From assembly GCA_028066245.1 (NCBI GenBank), contig JALCBR010000058.1, positions 1 through 32,831 on the forward strand: a DNA stretch of 32,831 nt. The letters run 5' to 3'. Both the position numbers and the translations under genes were made by a program. The notes beneath the pieces were generated by a model. The model ran no database searches, was not told the origin of the DNA, and worked only from the letters and a program-made list of their open reading frames with translations. Each line of letters opens with the position of its first letter. Position 1 is the first letter of the stretch. Origin of the DNA: Pirellulales bacterium (GTDB taxonomy: Bacteria; Planctomycetota; Planctomycetia; Pirellulales; S012-138). Positions 22,123 through 31,391 of this stretch are shown piece by piece.

Positions 22123-23634
22123 CTAAAGTCGGACGGTCACGGCTTTGGTTTCTGTGTAGAGTTCGATGGCCTCACGTCCCATTTCGCGTCCCCAGCCGGA
22201 TTGTTTGTACCCGCCGAAGGGGAGCGCCGCATCGAACACGTTGTAGCAATTGACCCACACACTGCCGGCACGAAGCTTTCTCGCCAACCGATGTGCCTGA
22301 CTGACGTCTCGCGTCCATACGGCAGCCGCCAAACCGTAGACGCTGTCATTGGCCGCGTCCACGAGCTTGTCAAGATTGTCATACGGCACAGCAGCCACGA
22401 CAGGGCCAAAGATCTCTTCGCGCATCACCGACATATCCGGCCGCGTGTCGACGAGTACGGTTGGTTCGACAAAGTAACCAGCATCGCCCAGCCGGCTCCC
22501 GCCTACGACCGCTTTAGCGCCGTCTGCGAGACCTGATTCGAGATATCCGCAGACGCGGTCCTGCTGGATCTGCGAGACCATGGGCCCCATTTCCGTTTCT
22601 GGGTTCATTCCTGGGCCCACCTTGATGCGGCTGGCTGCACTCGCAATGCCCTCAACAACCTGATCAAACTGGCTCTGATGGACAAACAATCGCGAGCCGG
22701 CGCAGCAACATTGGCCGTGGTTAAAGAAGATGGCGCTGGCCGCTCCGGGGATGGCGGTTTCCAGGTCGGCATCGGGCAAGATGACGTTGGGGCTCTTGCC
22801 GCCCAGTTCTAGCGTGATGCGTTTGAGATTGGTCTCACCGGCGGCTTTGACGATCAGCTTGCCAACTTCCGTTGAACCGGTGAACGCGACCTTGTCGACG
22901 TCTGGATGAGCGGCCAGCGCTGCGCCGGCTGTTTCGCCAAACCCGGTGATGATATTTACAACGCCAGGGGGAAAACCGGCCTCCTGGATGAGTTGCCCAA
23001 GCCGCAACGCGGACAGTGGCGTCTCTTCGGCAGCCTTCAGAATCAGTGTGCAACCGGTCGCCAACGCTGGGCCAAGCTTCCACGCCGCCATTAACAAGGG
23101 AAAGTTCCAGGGAATGATCTGCCCGACCACACCGACAGGCTCGCGGAGCGTATAGCTATGGAATTCCACGTCCGGCATATAGGGGACGGAGATTGGAATC
23201 GTCGATCCTTCCACCTTGGTTGCCCAGCCGGCCATGTAGCGAAACAGGTCCACCGCCAACGGCACATCCGCGACCGCCGCAACAGCCCGTGGCTTGCCGT
23301 TGTCCAAGCTTTCGATCTCGGCAAACTCGTCGAGATGGGCTTCGAGCAGATCGGCCAATTTCCAAATCAGCTTGCCTCGCTCTGACGATGTCATTCGTGG
23401 CCAGGGCCCTTCGTCAAAAGCATGTCGTGCTGCGCTGACCGCCGCGTTGATGTCCAGAGCGTCTCCTTCCGCCACATTTGTCAACGTCTCGCCACTGGCA
23501 GGGTCTTTGACTTCAAACTGCTTACCCGAGGCGGCATCAACCCACTGGCCACCAACCAGCAACTGATGCGGTTGTCGTAGGAACTGGCTCACTTGTTCGC
23601 TGATCTCAGGCGATGGTGTTGTCAGAACGGTCAT
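22123..23634 (-). CDS. NAD(P)-dependent aldehyde dehydrogenase
   Basis: 503 residues from ATG 23634, with GGAG seven bases upstream. The longer frame to 23844 is rejected for lack of family likeness. It shows IIPWNFPLLMAAWKLGPALA (coenzyme region), KVAFTGSTEVGK (Rossmann loop), general base Glu in ITLELGGKSPN, the catalytic Cys in HGQCCCAGSR (about residue 306), EEIFGPV, and LPFGGYKQSGWGREMG at the end. This is the ALDH1/2-type class, which oxidises a range of aldehydes to acids. The next gene downstream is the Tat-exported PLP enzyme; the pair may be one transcript. It has no signal peptide. The exact substrate is unknown. Confidence 0.93.
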   Translation of the reverse strand: MTVLTTPSPEISEQVSQFLRQPHQLLVGGQWVDAASGKQFEVKDPASGETLTNVAEGDALDINAAVSAARHAFDEGPWPRMTSSERGKLIWKLADLLEAHLDEFAEIESLDNGKPRAVAAVADVPLAVDLFRYMAGWATKVEGSTIPISVPYMPDVEFHSYTLREPVGVVGQIIPWNFPLLMAAWKLGPALATGCTLILKAAEETPLSALRLGQLIQEAGFPPGVVNIITGFGETAGAALAAHPDVDKVAFTGSTEVGKLIVKAAGETNLKRITLELGGKSPNVILPDADLETAIPGAASAIFFNHGQCCCAGSRLFVHQSQFDQVVEGIASAASRIKVGPGMNPETEMGPMVSQIQQDRVCGYLESGLADGAKAVVGGSRLGDAGYFVEPTVLVDTRPDMSVMREEIFGPVVAAVPYDNLDKLVDAANDSVYGLAAAVWTRDVSQAHRLARKLRAGSVWVNCYNVFDAALPFGGYKQSGWGREMGREAIELYTETKAVTVRL

Positions 23635-23765
23635 CGGGAAGCTCCATGCGGGACGGGGAGGTTGCGCCTGTGCGAATGATAGAACTCGTGGGAAAAATTC
23701 GCAACTTTCGCCGAGCCCAGTAGAGGGCGGAGTTGCTGGACAAGCGCGAGTGATCTCGATTGCGC

Positions 23766-23793
23766 AAAAGAAAAGCCCCGGCATAGCCGGGGC
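23766..23793 (-). terminator. Rho-independent terminator of the ECF sigma gene
   Basis: Plus-strand arms GCCCCGGC (23775-23782) and GCCGGGGC (23786-23793) with a 3-nt loop; on the minus strand the stem is followed by TTTTCTTTT (23774-23766). It lies about 100 bases beyond the sigma-factor stop and before the aldehyde dehydrogenase start. Confidence 0.85.
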
Positions 23794-23891
23794 GGGCGCC
23801 TGCTGATTTATGATGGCACTCGATTTCCCGGTCGCCGCGCTCAACGCGGCACGGCGACCGGCCTTGGCAAAATCAACGGGAAATCGCGGTG

Positions 23892-25352
23892 TCAGTCTTT
23901 CTTGCCGAGCTTCCGTTTTAGCTCTTCAACTTGCTTTCGCAGTTCGGCGTTTTCCCGTTGTAGCCGCATGTTCTCACGATAGATTTCGAGCTGCTGCTCC
24001 AACTCTTCGATACGTTGCTCGAGCCGAGTGCTTCTTGTGTCCGCCGTAGCCCTGTTGGCAAGCATCTGCTGCAATGCAGCTTGATAGGCCGTTTGGACGG
24101 GAGGCAGCAGCTCCAGTGAACTTTTTGCCGCTTCCGTGCTCTGCGCATGGAGAGCGGATTCGATCGCTCGCTGCGCGAGCAGTTGTTGGATTAAAGAGGA
24201 ATTCGCAGCAGCTTGCTGCCTGGGGGCGATAATTCTCAGATAGTCGGCCACAGAGTTCGCGGCAGCACTTTCTACCTCAGCATAGCCTTGCGCGCTGGAG
24301 TGTTTCTTGCGGAGATCTTGCAGGCTGGCGTCAAGCACCCTCAGGTAGCTCGCTTCCCTCTCTTCATCCTGCTGGTTTTCCGTGACGACTTGCGCTTCGT
24401 CGTCATCTTGAACCCGTGTCGGTCCAGACGGAACATCAGCAAGCGTAACCAGTACTCCAGCGGCATTCGAGTTCGGCTCCTGGGCAATCGCCATGGCTGA
24501 GATGGCGACCAAGCCCACCGATGCTCCGAGGATCATTGTCATTGTTGACTTCACGAAAGTGGTCATGAACATCGTCTTCAAGACTCCTTGAGCTAGGGTC
24601 AGCGATGCCTGCTGTCCGGATGTCGCCAGCAGCCCATTGGCCCAGGCGATCCGAACTTGCGCGGCGACAAGAACGGTTGAATTCAAAACACTTGCGGAAG
24701 GCAAAGTGGTCCCAGCAGAAACAGCCTGGGAAAGGCTCGCCACCGTGATGCCTGCGATGCCCAACACTCCCAGTCGGCGACGGAGCATGGTACGTCCACG
24801 CTGCACCCGTTTGTGCAGTGCGGCTTCACTGATCTTCAGCCGCTTTGCTGCTGCGGCACGCTCCTCTCCCTGGAGATAACAAACAATCAAAGGGGTACGA
24901 TACTTTTCCGGCAGCCGATCAAGTTGTTCATGCAATGCCAGGATCGTGGCTCGCGTGGAAACCTTTTCCAGGCTCCCCTGCGGCAACGCATCCTCAGGGG
25001 GGAGTTCGGTTGTTTTTCGTCTCGCGATACGCTTACGCGCCGCCAAGGCGGATCTCAAAGCCACGCGGTGCAGCCAAGCGACAAGACTCTCCTTCTTGCT
25101 GATGCCGGACGCCTTCCGCGCGAGTACGAAGAAGGTTGCTTGGAACGCATCCTCCGCATCGGCACGATTTCCCAACACCGCCGTACAGACCGATGACACC
25201 ATGCGGGCGTGCCGTTGAACGATGGCGCGGAATCCCGCCTCGTTTCCAGTTTCGCAGAAATCCGTCAACAGGGCCGCGTCGCTCAAGTCAGCGACGGACA
25301 CATCCGGCGGTTCGGCCTCATGAGATTGTGTTGTCACATTCAACGGGATCAT
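23892..25352 (-). CDS. ECF sigma factor with membrane helix and C-terminal coiled coil
   Basis: 486 residues from ATG 25352 (no clear Shine-Dalgarno). Residues about 25-110 form sigma region 2 (FRAIVQRHARMVSSVCTAVL, NRADAEDAFQATFFVLARKA). Residues about 135-195 form region 4 with its helix-turn-helix (LPEKYRTPLIVCYLQGEERA, KRLKISEAALHKRVQRGR). After about residue 195 the protein continues: a weakly hydrophobic section, then a convincing membrane helix near 270-290 (TMILGASVGLVAISAMAIAQ), then about 190 residues of charged helix ending in a leucine-rich coiled coil (RIEELEQQLEIYRENMRLQR). An ordinary ECF sigma is about 180-200 residues. The tail is likely to act as a built-in sensor or anchor in place of a separate anti-sigma factor, as inferred for other extended planctomycete sigmas. 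A terminator follows. Confidence 0.9.
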   Translation of the reverse strand: MIPLNVTTQSHEAEPPDVSVADLSDAALLTDFCETGNEAGFRAIVQRHARMVSSVCTAVLGNRADAEDAFQATFFVLARKASGISKKESLVAWLHRVALRSALAARKRIARRKTTELPPEDALPQGSLEKVSTRATILALHEQLDRLPEKYRTPLIVCYLQGEERAAAAKRLKISEAALHKRVQRGRTMLRRRLGVLGIAGITVASLSQAVSAGTTLPSASVLNSTVLVAAQVRIAWANGLLATSGQQASLTLAQGVLKTMFMTTFVKSTMTMILGASVGLVAISAMAIAQEPNSNAAGVLVTLADVPSGPTRVQDDDEAQVVTENQQDEEREASYLRVLDASLQDLRKKHSSAQGYAEVESAAANSVADYLRIIAPRQQAAANSSLIQQLLAQRAIESALHAQSTEAAKSSLELLPPVQTAYQAALQQMLANRATADTRSTRLEQRIEELEQQLEIYRENMRLQRENAELRKQVEELKRKLGKKD

Positions 25353-25570
25353 CCAAAACGACTTTGCTGCGCGGCATTGATAGAATAGAGTGTCGCAGCA
25401 CGTCGGTCGTGGACAAAGAAATCAGAGATCTGGAAATTTGGCGATCTTGCGAAATGCCAGGGTTCGCCGTTGTTGATTGTTCGCCATCACGGAGATCACT
25501 TGTTCACGGCAAGCAGGAACGCATTTCCGCCAAGTGTTCACCCCTAGGTAACTCCAACTGCCGACGTTCC

Positions 25571-26242
25571 ATGCAGCCTGTGCAAAACAATCCGGCCTTC
25601 TTACCAGGCTTCATCTGTGGCCTTATCTTTGCCGTGACGGTGGTGACGCTGATTGGCGGCCTAATCCTGCGGCTTTCAGTCAGCTGGTTTAACAAGATGC
25701 GGGGGGCAAGCGGAAGAGGAATGCCTTCGCTGCCACCGGAAGACGCCCCACGTGAAGATGCACCCATTGAACTCGCGCAACCTCCGCTCCCGGGCGAGAA
25801 TCCGTACGCGGCTCCCTCCGCGATGAACTACGCGCCACCCCGAACACAAGGCAAGGAATATGCTGGCCGCGGGGCGCCGGTGCCCGGCTACGGCAAAGCG
25901 ATGGGAATCGTCTTCTTACGGGTGATTATCGATCGGGCGATCAGATTCTTCGTGTACACCGTACTCCTGCCGCAGCCAGTTCCCGCTCAACCGATGAACG
26001 CAGCCGGACCGACCCCGGATGTGATTCTCCCAATCATCATAGACTCGTTGGCGGATGGCATCGCGATCAGTGCGGCGCTCACAGTGCTTTCATTTCTGAT
26101 CGGCGCGTTGATCCTCAAGGCCATGCTCCCCGCGTCACTCGGTAAGGCGTGCGTGATTCAGTTGCTGGAGTACCTGATCGGCCTGGCAATCTTGCTCGTG
26201 CTCGGCGTCCTCATTGTGGTGCTGATCTCCGTCCTCGCGTAA
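25571..26242 (+). CDS. Four-helix membrane protein of unknown function
   Basis: 223 residues from ATG 25571; the frame is open to 25136 but that part overlaps the sigma gene and is not protein-like. TM1 covers about residues 12-35. A Pro-rich cytoplasmic or periplasmic loop contains ENPYAAPS; NPY-x-x-P motifs recur in planctomycete membrane proteins. TM2 is about 105-128 (FLRVIIDRAIRFFVYTVLL), TM3 about 155-180, and TM4 about 190-222 (YLIGLAILLVLGVLIVVLIS). No catalytic motif is visible. It is divergent from the membrane-crossing sigma gene, with 218 bases between the starts, so the two may share regulation. A role as partner of that sigma is only a guess. Confidence 0.7.
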   Translation: MQPVQNNPAFLPGFICGLIFAVTVVTLIGGLILRLSVSWFNKMRGASGRGMPSLPPEDAPREDAPIELAQPPLPGENPYAAPSAMNYAPPRTQGKEYAGRGAPVPGYGKAMGIVFLRVIIDRAIRFFVYTVLLPQPVPAQPMNAAGPTPDVILPIIIDSLADGIAISAALTVLSFLIGALILKAMLPASLGKACVIQLLEYLIGLAILLVLGVLIVVLISVLA

Positions 26243-26364: not shown

Positions 26365-27678
26365 TCAATACCGGTAGAACTCTGGCTTGTAAGGGCCGTT
26401 CACTGGCAAGTCCAGATAATCCGCCTGTTTCTCCGTCAGCGAAGTCAGCTTGGCACCCAAGTGATCCAAGTGCAACCGAGCGACTTCTTCATCCAGGTGC
26501 TTGGGCAGGGTGTACACGTCAATGTCATACTTCTCGTGATTTTCCCACAGCTCAATCTGAGCCAAGACCTGGTTGGTAAAGGAGTTGGACATCACAAACG
26601 AGGGATGGCCTGTCGCGCAGCCTAGGTTCACCAATCGCCCGGAAGCGAGCATGATTACGCTGTGCCCATCCGGATAGATGTATCGATCTACTTGCGGCTT
26701 GACCGTGACTTTCTTGATGTCCTTGTTGTTCTCCAACGAGGCAACATCGATCTCGATATCAAAGTGGCCAATGTTGCAAACGATGGCGTCGCCGGTCATG
26801 CGAGCCATGTGATCACCGGTGATGATGTCACAGCAACCAGTCGCGGTGACAAAGATGTGAGCCTTGTCAACGACGTCATCCATGCGGACGACTTCAAAGC
26901 CTTCCATCGCAGCTTGTAGGGCATTAATGGGATCAATCTCGGTCACCAGCACGCGAGCGCCGAGGCCGGCCATCGATTGAGCGCAGCCTTTGCCAACATC
27001 GCCATACCCGGCAACGACAACCGTCTTTCCAGCAACCATGACGTCGGTCGCCCGCTTGATGCCATCGGCCAGGCTTTCGCGGCAGCCATAGAGATTGTCA
27101 AACTTGCTCTTGGTGACAGAGTCATTGACGTTGATGCAGGGCAGCTTCAACGTCCCCTTCTTCATCATTTTGTACAGCGCGTGAACGCCTGTTGTGGTCT
27201 CTTCGGAAAGCCCTCGAATGCCTGGCAGCAATTCCGGAAACTGCTCATGAACCATGGCGGTCAGATCACCACCATCATCCAAAATCAGGTTGAGTGGTTG
27301 GCCGTCAGGGAAGTGCAGCGTTTGCTCAATGCACCAGAGGAACTCTTCCTCGGTTTCGCCCTTCCAGGCATAGACAGGAACGCCGGTGGCGGCGATGGCC
27401 GCAGCGGCATGGTCCTGAGTGGAGAAAATATTACAACTGCTCCAGGTGACCTCCGCGCCCAGTTCGGTCAGTGTCTCAATGAGCACCGCCGTTTGGATGG
27501 TCATATGCAGGCAACCGGCGATTCGGGCACCCGCCAGCGGCTTATCCTGGCCGTATTTCTTTCGCAAAGCCATCAGCCCTGGCATCTCGTTCTCCGCCAG
27601 TTCGATTTCCCGGCGGCCAAACTCGGCCAGACTCATATCAGCGACTTTGTAAGGCAGCTTTGTTTCCACTTGTGACAC
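26365..27678 (-). CDS. ahcY: S-adenosylhomocysteinase
   Basis: 437 residues from a GTG at 27678; AGGAG lies six bases upstream, which decides this start. It splits S-adenosylhomocysteine into adenosine and homocysteine, removing the product of SAM-dependent methylation. Visible marks are [70 protein letters not shown] (substrate and catalytic Lys/Asp/Asn), the NAD motif [23 protein letters not shown] and the C-terminal PYKPEFYRY with its NAD-contacting Lys and Tyr. The length fits the family. It is a single gene with its own terminator. The leader was examined for an SAH riboswitch and does not fit. Confidence 0.97.
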
Positions 27679-28041: not shown

Positions 28042-28623
28042 ATGTTGAGTAAACGAGCTACTGTCTTGTCGTCTTGTCTGTTTCTGGCTGTCAGCTTCGT
28101 GATTTCCGGTGAGCTCCTGGCCCAGCGCAGCCAGCCATTTTTTGTTTTTGGTGGTGGTGTCGCGCCCAACGGATTGCCGCTGCCTGGCCAAGGTGCCGGC
28201 GACCACTGGGCTGTGGGGTGGGCCAGTAGCGTTGGGCTCCATTTCGGGTCGGGCGCTGTCCAGACCGATTCCGCCAACCCTCAACCAAACGGAACCATCA
28301 CAGGGGAATTTGGCAGTGCGGAGCCCTTTGTGTTCCGCGGATTGTCAGGAAGTTTGGCCACACACTACGGGCGCACGGCGTTTGGAGCCAGTTCACCTGG
28401 GACGTTCACGGCAGAAGTACTCGATGTCCTTCCTGATGGCACATTGATTGTGACGGTTGAATTTGTGGCCGAGTTTGTGGTCCAACCGAACTTGAGTACC
28501 GGCAGATTTCGCGGGGCAACCGGCAAGTGGACGATGATCGCCAATACCGAACCTTTTGCCTTGGGAACGACTGAGCCACTCAAGTATTCGTGGTACGGGT
28601 ACGGTTCTATCTCTACGCGATGA
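28042..28623 (+). CDS. Secreted protein of unknown function
   Basis: 193 residues from ATG 28042. Residues 1-27 are a clear signal peptide (ATVLSSCLFLAVSFVISGEL, then LLAQ). The mature part is rich in Gly, Phe, Thr and Ser with alternating beta-strand-like patterns (GTFTAEVLDVLPDGTLIVTV, FRGATGKWTMIANTEPF), so a small beta-barrel or beta-sandwich is likely. No known domain is recognised. The next gene on the same strand, 118 bases downstream, is an ECF sigma factor; they may be cotranscribed. Confidence 0.72.
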   Translation: MLSKRATVLSSCLFLAVSFVISGELLAQRSQPFFVFGGGVAPNGLPLPGQGAGDHWAVGWASSVGLHFGSGAVQTDSANPQPNGTITGEFGSAEPFVFRGLSGSLATHYGRTAFGASSPGTFTAEVLDVLPDGTLIVTVEFVAEFVVQPNLSTGRFRGATGKWTMIANTEPFALGTTEPLKYSWYGYGSISTR

Positions 28624-28741
28624 GCAAACGAGACACGCACGGACACGGCAAGACCTGGTCGCCGTTGAATGGTTTGGCTGTGGACGCCACAATGGTCGAG
28701 ATGCAAGCGGTGACTTTGTGTTGCCGTGTCCGTGCCGATCG

Positions 28742-29410
28742 ATGAAAAGGCGTCCAGAATCTGTGTGGCCGGAAGCTGACAAGACCGAGGAACTGCTCGC
28801 CAAGGCGCAAGGTGGTGACGATGCGGCGGTCGGCAATTTGCTTGACCGCCACCGCACGGCGCTACGGCGGATGGTCGATATGCGAATGGATGCGGCGCTC
28901 AAACGCCGGGTGGACGCCAGTGACATCGTGCAGGATGTCTTGGTCGAAGCCAATCGACGGTTGCAGGATTATCTCAGCAACCCGGCGATGCCATTTCACC
29001 TTTGGCTGCGGCATATGGCCAAGGACCGGATCATTGACGCGCACCGCCGGCATCGGGTGGCGCAACGGAGAAGCCTGGACCGCGAGCAACCACTGGTGGC
29101 GCCCGGAGGGATGGACCATTCCACCATGGAACTGGCGGAGGAACTGTGGGATGGCGAGTTGACGCCGCAAGCCGCTGCCACTCGCCGGGAAGCCATCATT
29201 CGCTTTCAGCAAGCGCTGGAAGAACTTGATGAAGCTGATCAGGAAATCGTACTGATGCGCAACTTTGAGCAGCTTTCCAACCAGGAAGTTGCCCAGGCGT
29301 TGGGATTGTCCGAACCGGCAGCCAGCATGCGGTACCTGCGAGCGATACGCAAACTGCGTCCCAAGCTGGGTGGTGACGAAGGGGATGGGGATACACCTAC
29401 AGATCGCTGA
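28742..29410 (+). CDS. ECF-subfamily RNA polymerase sigma factor
   Basis: 222 residues from ATG 28742 (the frame is open to 28556 but overlaps the previous gene). No ribosome binding site is evident. Region 2: GNLLDRHRTALRRMVDMRMD and KRRVDASDIVQDVLVEANRR, then LWLRHMAKDRIIDAHRRH. Region 4: EELDEADQEIVLMRNFEQLS, followed by the helix-turn-helix NQEVAQALGLSEPAASMRYLRA. The pattern (R-R-V-D-x-S-D-I-V-Q, A-S-M-R-Y-L-R-A) matches the short sigma group common in planctomycetes. No anti-sigma gene is adjacent, and the downstream convergent gene is a histidine kinase. Targets are unknown. Confidence 0.9.
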   Translation: MKRRPESVWPEADKTEELLAKAQGGDDAAVGNLLDRHRTALRRMVDMRMDAALKRRVDASDIVQDVLVEANRRLQDYLSNPAMPFHLWLRHMAKDRIIDAHRRHRVAQRRSLDREQPLVAPGGMDHSTMELAEELWDGELTPQAAATRREAIIRFQQALEELDEADQEIVLMRNFEQLSNQEVAQALGLSEPAASMRYLRAIRKLRPKLGGDEGDGDTPTDR

Positions 29411-29462: not shown

Positions 29463-31193
29463 TCATGCCCCTTCGATTCGCTCGCCATCGAGCGTCGGTG
29501 AGGCCGGCGCGTCGGCGTTCTCCTCGCCACATGCCCGTAACGGCAACGTCAGCGTGAACCGCGTTCCTTGTCCGGGTACGCTTTCCACCGTAACGTCACC
29601 TCCATGCTCGGTGAGCACCTTCTTGGTGACTGGCAATCCCAGTCCGGTTCCTCGGCTTCGTTTCTCGGAGACAAAGAGTGTGAAGATGTTCTCGATCTCG
29701 GTTTCAGGAATGCCGGCGCCATTGTCCTCAATGACAATGTCCGCCAGTCTGGATTCCGGTTGATACTTGGTTGCCACGAGGATTCGCCCTGCGTTCTGGT
29801 CCGCGCAAGCGTCAATGGCGTTTGTAATCACGTTGAGGATGGCGCCGTGTAGGGCTTCCGCATCGAACTCGCCGACCGGCAGTGACTCATCCGCTTGGAA
29901 ATCTATCCGGGCGCCGTGTTCGCTGGCGCGCGCCCGCATCAGGTCGACGACGTCGAAAACTGTCTGATTAAGGTCCGCCGGCTGGAGGTCAGGCTCGCGC
30001 TGTTTGCTGTACGTCAGCATATCCGAGATCACCTTGGTGATTCGTGCTTGGTTCTTTTCAACGAACTCCCAACCGCGGCGGACCATCGCTTCATCGTGTT
30101 GTTCCAACCCTTCCCGAATCAGGAATCCGCCACCTTCTAATCCCTGCAGAATATTCTTGATATGGTGAGCCATCATGGCGATGGTTTGCCCCACCGCGGC
30201 CAACCGTTCCGTACTGACCATGGCGGAGTAATACCGAGTATCTTCCACCGCTAGTGCTGCCTGATGGGCGATGGCGACCATGAGCTTCAAGTGCTCTTCC
30301 GTGAGCTTGGTTTGCGCGGGACGTTGCAGCAACACATCTTGTGCAGGCGTCGTGCTGTCAATGTAGATCACGCCGAGCATGTCATAGCGCCCCTGCATCG
30401 GTACGCAGATAGCTTCGCGGATGCCCTGCTGCATGATGCTCACCGCCGGCTTGAACCGCTGATCTTCTTGGGCGTTGGTGGTGAGGACGCCCTCATTGTG
30501 CTCGACGACGAAATCCAGGATCGTCCGAGAAATGCGGATTTCATCCTGTGCAATTCGCTTATCGCGAGCTTCAAAAGCGGCCGGCTCCAGGCTGCCGCTT
30601 TCCTGCGAAAGCAGCATGATGCAGCCGCGGTCTACGTCTACCCAATCAAAGATCAACTGCATGATCCGTTTGAGGAGCTGATCAATGTCCAGCGTATGGC
30701 TAACCGCCAGGGCCGTCCGATACATCACCTGCAGATGCCGCTGCGCTCTGGCAAGCCAATCACTTGGCGTGACCTCAGCCTCGACATTGGAGGCCGTGCC
30801 GCCAAAGTCCCCAGGGCGGATGGTTTGCACAATGCGAGACTCTTCCGCATCGGCCTTGGGAACGATTTGAATCCGATCGCGCGCGGATTGGCGACCGGTA
30901 GCCAGCGATGTATCGGAAAACTCCAGGACCGTGTCGCCCAGTTGAATCTGATCGCCGGCGCTCAACTCGTGCTCGGCAACACGCAATCCATTGATATAGG
31001 TTCCGTTGCTGCTCGCGCGGTCTTCCAGCAGATAGATGCCGTCAACAGGTTTGATGCGCGCGTGAAAGCGGGAAATCTGCGGGTCACCAAGGTGGAGATG
31101 ATTGGAAGCGTCGCGACCGATTGTCAGCGGCGTCTCGTCAAGCTCGCAGCGACTTCCCTGGTTTGGTCCGTGAATGATATGCAGAAACGGCAT
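29463..31193 (-). CDS. Soluble FHA-GAF sensor histidine kinase
   Basis: 576 residues from ATG 31193; the frame is open to 31349 but the FHA domain begins at once after 31193. Residues 1-92 are an FHA domain, which binds phosphothreonine (LTIGRDASNHLHLGDPQISR, then RASSNGTYING). Residues about 150-330 are a GAF-type sensor (HTLDIDQLLKRIMQLIF, CIMLLSQESG). The kinase core has the phosphorylated His in MMAHHIKNILQGLE (about residue 343), an N box NVITNAIDACADQ, DNGAGIPETE and GTGLGLPVTKKVL. No membrane helix is present, so it senses inside the cell. FHA suggests input from Ser/Thr protein kinases, which planctomycetes have in number. No response regulator is adjacent. Confidence 0.92.
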   Translation of the reverse strand: MPFLHIIHGPNQGSRCELDETPLTIGRDASNHLHLGDPQISRFHARIKPVDGIYLLEDRASSNGTYINGLRVAEHELSAGDQIQLGDTVLEFSDTSLATGRQSARDRIQIVPKADAEESRIVQTIRPGDFGGTASNVEAEVTPSDWLARAQRHLQVMYRTALAVSHTLDIDQLLKRIMQLIFDWVDVDRGCIMLLSQESGSLEPAAFEARDKRIAQDEIRISRTILDFVVEHNEGVLTTNAQEDQRFKPAVSIMQQGIREAICVPMQGRYDMLGVIYIDSTTPAQDVLLQRPAQTKLTEEHLKLMVAIAHQAALAVEDTRYYSAMVSTERLAAVGQTIAMMAHHIKNILQGLEGGGFLIREGLEQHDEAMVRRGWEFVEKNQARITKVISDMLTYSKQREPDLQPADLNQTVFDVVDLMRARASEHGARIDFQADESLPVGEFDAEALHGAILNVITNAIDACADQNAGRILVATKYQPESRLADIVIEDNGAGIPETEIENIFTLFVSEKRSRGTGLGLPVTKKVLTEHGGDVTVESVPGQGTRFTLTLPLRACGEENADAPASPTLDGERIEGA

Positions 31194-31391
31194 CGTGAGA
31201 GCCTTGTGGCGCAAACAAAGGACTCTTCCGGTCGCCTGAGCGCACGATCCGTGCGTGTACCGGAGACCAAATCGCCAATAGCATATCTTAACAGCTTCTC
31301 GCTCAAGATGCCTGAACAGCAAGCATTGCCGCCAAGGCCCACTCAGCATGATGCTCGCACAGAGCCCCCCAGAAACAGCGATGGCACGGCG

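Follow-up and report, generated by a model that had tools for sequence, protein, structure and literature searches.

The window, by which we mean the whole stretch of 32,831 nucleotides analysed here from a Pirellulales bacterium (contig JALCBR010000058.1), carries a 486-residue open reading frame (ORF) that runs from 25352 to 23892 on the minus strand, with no internal stop in its translation. The plus-strand frame over 23892-25352 is interrupted by stops; the coordinates given in a preliminary description of this DNA are correct, with minus as the strand of the gene. A Pfam scan of the encoded protein returned Sigma70_r2 (E 1.6e-9) and Sigma70_r4_2 (E 1.2e-9) and no further domain over cut-off, so that sigma regions 2 and 4 are intact, as had been described. 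The two domains are separated by 26 residues with no region 3 between them, the arrangement that defines ECF (group 4) sigma factors. All of the best 25 of 61 matching NCBIfam models were sigma factor models; the protein scored above the threshold set for TIGR02937, the ECF superfamily model, and, among those best 25, for no narrower sigma model. Sequence matches in the PDB were ECF sigmas within residues 4-199, plus two weak matches in the coil region. Past the sigma part the chain continues for 292 residues beyond residue 194, in agreement with the roughly 290 originally noted (Table 1).

Table 1. Features of the sigma factor gene and its product.
Feature	Positions	Strand	Basis
Whole gene: ECF sigma, linker, membrane helix and outer part	23892-25352	minus	Translation, codon-position GC
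Sigma region 2, residues 44-111, including conserved C56	25020-25223	minus	Pfam PF04542
Sigma region 4, residues 138-190, including conserved C158	24783-24941	minus	Pfam PF08281
Conserved linker, residues 195-262	24567-24770	minus	AF2 module model, column conservation
Membrane helix core, residues 271-289	24486-24542	minus	Mean Kyte-Doolittle 2.07; same place in 120/128 relatives
Outer part, predicted extracytoplasmic and mostly helical, residues 290-486, without Pfam match	23895-24485	minus	
Coiled coil at the C-terminus, residues 443-484, with two heptad blocks and one stutter	23901-24026	minus	

The sigma gene is adjoined by an aldehyde dehydrogenase gene (22123-23844, minus strand). On its other side lies a divergent ORF with a likely start at 25571, and after it S-adenosylhomocysteinase (26365-27678). 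When the divergent neighbour was scanned as the longer ORF 25136-26242, no Pfam family matched it at E values up to 0.1. By eye, the ORF at 25571-26242 (about 223 residues) contains several hydrophobic stretches, and it has a 218-base upstream region in common with the sigma gene; it is a possible partner or target of the sigma. No anti-sigma-like gene was found among the immediate neighbours.

The genome of origin (4.94 Mb, 97.5% complete) encodes three close paralogs, on contigs C8 (61% over residues 4-308), C121 (61% over 17-298) and C33 (37% over 14-309). This likeness spans sigma, linker and helix and ends at the start of the outer part. The window gene, C121 and C8 also share a short coiled-coil end, and the stretch between does not match; the outer part of C33 differs. 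Eight other checked sigma matches of the same genome end 4 to 47 residues past region 4. In the C8 paralog (locus L006, 1501-2893) there is a stop at 2701-2703, and the coiled-coil end lies in another frame (2360-2893), reflecting a frameshift either in the gene or in the assembly.

The module made up of sigma, linker and helix is shared by a large planctomycete family. An alignment of 21 modules (A1) found matches at E 1e-40 or better in at least 52 of 392 genomes of the phylum, with six candidates per genome scored. In a set of named genomes, at least 598 stretches matched the motif, 564 of which were confirmed; 79 of the 80 kept matches bear planctomycete names, taking all the genera among them to be planctomycetes, as we partly presume, and the remaining one is Bacterium isolate SCN18. 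From 145 different ORFs matching the module model we retained a family set of 128 (E under 1e-50, model coverage from position 15 or earlier to 240 or later), in which cut copies of two members (from L027 and L030) displaced the complete copies in L033 and L035, so that the set lacks these two. Pairs of family members sit near each other on a single locus in L091, L098, L105 and L114, and also on contigs C151 and C225 of genome G039, as expected from tandem duplication.

We then examined the membrane segment across this family by simple Kyte-Doolittle hydropathy. A helix with a mean value of at least 1.6 is present in 120 of the 128 modules, at a median of 70.5 residues past region 4, and the eight others score 1.40-1.59; the same search over control zones gave 0/128 in the sigma part and 0/114 in the outer part. 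The flank of the helix on the sigma side is the more positive one in 98 modules, the less positive in 10, and equal in 20. Only 5 of 122 tails contain a further segment at the 1.6 threshold, two of them within PEP-CTERM-like ends. Since A1 spans the anchor, recruiting with it favours anchor-bearing members, and a model rebuilt from the sigma part alone was run on loci fetched with A1 or P0001. Among its 133 strong matches, 131 have a tail of at least 50 residues, the two tailless ones being cut by the end of the locus; the helix reaches 1.6 in 123 and 1.4 in 131. Weaker matches, which are other sigmas of the same loci, lack a tail in 9 of 11 cases. The helix cores contain 13% glycine, with two or more glycines in 98 of 120, a content that would suit a site-2 protease substrate. 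The charges fit an N-in/C-out topology, and we strongly infer that the sigma is inside and the outer part in the envelope space. The membrane tethering proposed earlier for this helix is well supported by its conservation in the family, by the positive-inside charges and by the envelope-type domains that relatives carry at the corresponding place.

What follows the helix varies widely. The tails have a median length of 327 residues, and 122 of them fall into 60 clusters, 43 of which are single. WD40 occurs in 13 of the 122 and CarboxypepD_reg in 10; PQQ_2 and PD40 each occur in 11, probably in part as matches to the same propellers. Rarer domains were sought in two batches of 50 and 48 tails, that is, 98 of the 102 remaining (all except L037, L111, L051 and L131), after WD40-like tails had been removed by a crude pattern that still left WD40 in 2 of the 50. 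PG_binding_1 was found in 2/50 and 1/48 tails, and Poly_export, SBP_bac_10 and Big_1 each in 1/50 and 1/48. The first batch further contained one thioredoxin/redoxin-type domain (AhpC/TSA, thioredoxin-like), FG-GAP and Serpin; the second contained PQQ_2 (2/48), one each of STN, CusF_Ec, Laminin_G_3 and Rotamase (PPIC), as well as DUF2807, a chagasin-like inhibitor and PT-HINT. Most of the rarer domains are known from exported proteins. However, SMI1_KNR4 was found in one of the 48 tails and, like WD40, is a domain common inside cells; tails of these two kinds stand against a purely outer reading.

Long tails of L054, L060, L066, L109 and others, behind the membrane helix, resemble WD40 propellers by pattern. 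If the predicted topology extends to them, WD40-like tails would lie beyond the cytoplasmic membrane, which departs from how this domain is usually read. PEP-CTERM-like far ends were seen on the sigma factors L026, L027, L030, L031 and L034, the first of which also gave a weak dockerin match. These five tails come from genomes G033 and G039, a sixth match to the pattern (L145) having been set aside by eye, and such sigmas are apparently anchored at both ends. Exosortase is encoded in G033 and G039 and likewise in G000, G007 and G010; its presence is therefore consistent rather than discriminating. Drawn on the sigma tree, tail types require 14 changes, against a minimum of 7 and 35 in shuffles, so the tails follow the sigma tree in part. 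Within the largest, WD40-like, group 7 changes were drawn, of which starred branches force only 1, and repeated tail swapping is suggested by this tree.

The outer part of the window protein matches none of these tail domains, as no Pfam match falls within residues 290-486. Residues 290-442 are predicted to be mainly helical, at low confidence, from a single-sequence AF2 model of the whole protein (mean pLDDT 46) that served for helix positions only. The leucine-rich coiled coil of the preliminary description is real at residues 443-484 provided that one stutter is allowed (hydrophobic at 11 of 12 core positions, with 0 of 2000 shuffles as good). It is shorter than had been implied, and a strict single-heptad test on residues 417-486 was not significant (p 0.09; range 0.09-0.17). 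Codon-position GC in the outer part is gene-like (GC1/2/3 0.69/0.39/0.58). When the outer 189 residues were searched alone, matches in the genome of origin were limited to the protein itself and to the ends of C8 and C121 that hold the coil, and among 246 genomes of the order two others matched weakly (E 6e-4, across stops, and 9e-4). With hardly any relatives beyond the paralog coils, the outer part is therefore not a family of its own. The earlier emphasis on a coiled-coil outer domain was correct but of narrow reach, since the coil occurs in this genome alone, in the window gene and two of its three close paralogs. The conserved element of the family is the anchor module. The helical, coiled-coil outer part of the window protein probably oligomerises or binds an envelope partner.

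A separate anti-sigma was also sought around 82 family genes, by scanning 100 of 112 neighbour ORFs (the 12 over 700 residues were left out). No anti-sigma appeared among the best 25 of 167 neighbour families, which leaves room for a rare one; the commonest families in these best 25 each occurred in at most 4 of 100 ORFs and were other sigmas. The neighbourhood and the domain scans, within the best 25 of 167 families, thus support the earlier statement that no separate anti-sigma accompanies the gene. Nor was an anti-sigma Pfam domain found in the 21 modules scanned, or the zinc anti-sigma motif HxxxCxxC in any of the 128 linkers.

The linker itself, helical and about 75 residues long, is conserved. 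Across the family, 53-98 residues separate region 4 from the helix core, with conserved positions RRG 196-198, L222, T226, A230, G236, L253, G256, M261, K265 and K267; the window protein keeps L222, T226, A230, L253, G256 and M261 and does not keep RRG. Conservation amounts to 1.4-1.8 bits per column, compared with about 1.1 for the connector between regions 2 and 4. An AF2 model of the module on the 21-row alignment (mean pLDDT 82, pTM 0.74) has two helices within the linker, 205-214 and 220-238, followed by a long one, 248-290, that contains the membrane segment. Regions 2 and 4 are placed nearer to anti-sigma-bound structures (4cxf 7.2 Å, 5wuq 8.0 Å, 5wur 8.6 Å) than to polymerase-bound sigma structures (mostly 22-29 Å), in a comparison that in effect covered model residues 6-185 and was made with the compact module model alone. 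This placement offers only a hint that the linker may act as a built-in anti-sigma.

We assign the window protein, as the most likely reading, to the ECF57 type of sigma, with a coiled-coil exterior specific to its lineage, because of its two conserved cysteines and the WD40 extensions of its family. In the passages of a review that describe it (PMC8999054), ECF57 has a conserved cysteine in region 2 and another in region 4, with WD40-like repeats in some C-terminal extensions. The window protein has both cysteines, C56 and C158, the corresponding columns holding Cys in 117 and 94 of the 128 members, and WD40 is found in tails of the family, not in that of the window protein itself. Both groups are planctomycete. 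The difference lies in the helix: those passages (PMC8999054) speak of protein interaction and name no helix, which may appear in the primary classification papers, whereas the family described here shares a membrane helix ahead of every tail kind, WD40 included, and the window tail is a coiled coil. Searches of the literature on membrane-anchored or transmembrane sigma factors brought up only methanobactin work, and the relevant passages of PMC4672568, PMC11032199 and PMC8195603 name no membrane helix for such sigmas.

Two known systems come close. IutY of Pseudomonas putida, an ECF243 sigma/anti-sigma hybrid, likewise carries its sigma, a membrane helix and a periplasmic part on a single polypeptide, with no separate anti-sigma. 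Its periplasmic domain is of the cell-surface-signalling anti-sigma family, and it has an outer-membrane receptor; neither is seen for the window protein, in which residues 290-486 gave no Pfam match. ECF48, ECF52 and ECF53 of Actinobacteria (e.g. SCO4117) are also sigmas fused to a membrane helix and an outer domain, but carry a zinc-finger anti-sigma domain, the motif of which is absent from the linkers here.

Most envelope signals reach ECF sigmas via a separate anti-sigma and a protease cascade. For the window protein we favour, with moderate confidence, a one-component transmembrane sigma that is held at the membrane and released by cleavage upon an envelope signal. Anchor and linker would hold the sigma away from RNA polymerase, the linker standing in for a separate anti-sigma, while the helical coiled-coil outer part would sense the state of the envelope. 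A signal would bring about a first cut outside the membrane and a second one within it, and this intramembrane proteolysis would free the sigma domain to direct transcription, probably as for IutY, the sigma domain of which is reported to be released by Prc and RseP (PMC5411451). The topological part of this proposal is well supported, and the release step is drawn by analogy. The genome of origin contains ORFs for site-2 proteases (M50); as M50 proteases occur in 14 of 14 control genomes, their presence is weak evidence.

A sigma that works while membrane-bound is less probable. An oligomeric change in the coil would be relayed by the helix to the linker and would make the sigma accessible to polymerase without cleavage, in the way that ToxR- or CadC-type membrane regulators work. 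The single conserved helix, continuous with the juxtamembrane helix in the AF2 model, the coiled-coil end, typical of oligomers, and the conservation of the linker all suit such a route. It is nevertheless unlikely, as a membrane-held sigma would presumably be limited to initiation at promoters within reach, and the only fused membrane ECF presented as characterised in the pertinent part of the review is freed by proteolysis (PMC8999054).

It is rather improbable that the helix is an internal signal peptide, after which signal peptidase would cut (AMAIA-QE), freeing the outer part and leaving the sigma with a membrane stub. All four proteins of the genome of origin do show A-x-A or a similar helix end followed by Q, yet AxA near the helix end occurs in 43 of 128 members, little above control stretches (28/128 and 23/122), and the site was dropped as a family feature. 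Somewhat more doubtful again is a soluble cytoplasmic sigma, with its hydrophobic helix buried and an extension that makes cytoplasmic protein contacts. The WD40 tails, and the review's placing of ECF57, WD40 members included, under protein interaction (PMC8999054), would accord with it; the fixed position of the helix, the charge bias, the envelope-type tail domains and the PEP-CTERM-like ends argue against it, as does the recovery of planctomycete ECFs in the membrane fraction (PMC8567305). It is very improbable that the sigma is active anyway and that its outer part is sequence in decay or of no importance: the scarcity of relatives of the outer part and the C8 stop ahead of an out-of-frame coil speak for this, but its codon-position GC is gene-like and three paralogs have kept the coil although the stretches before it do not match.

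One-component release at the membrane would bring sensor, membrane anchor, likely inhibitor and sigma together within one protein, and across the family with many kinds of outer sensor. This would offer a simple system in which to study the activation of a membrane-held sigma, and a natural set of outer domains that could be swapped onto one sigma. It could also account for planctomycete ECF sigmas in membrane fractions. For five ECF sigmas of Tuwongella immobilis, recovery was confined to the Triton or SDS fractions (PMC8567305), a finding that the same paper ties to new WD40-bearing domain structures; if these sigmas carry a membrane helix, that would be a simple explanation. More tentatively, with chances that we put slightly below even, the whole family may form a phylum-wide planctomycete class in which one sigma-linker-helix module with a built-in anti-sigma is joined to dozens of unrelated extracytoplasmic sensors: peptidoglycan-binding, polysaccharide-export, copper-binding, thioredoxin, WD40 propeller, PEP-CTERM-anchored and coiled coil. 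Were this so, each protein would be a complete envelope-to-gene signalling pathway, and WD40 propellers taken for cytoplasmic adaptors would be outside the membrane.

A shared upstream promoter was considered and dropped, as the paralogs of the genome of origin have no gapped word in common, and no word pair in 128 upstream regions stood clear of shuffles. An upstream pattern noticed by eye occurs in 2 of the 128 regions (shuffle mean 0.5, maximum 3). Elsewhere in the window, a second ECF sigma-like ORF was recognised by eye (28556-29410, plus strand); it lies tail to tail with a gene for an FHA-GAF histidine kinase (29463-31349, minus strand).
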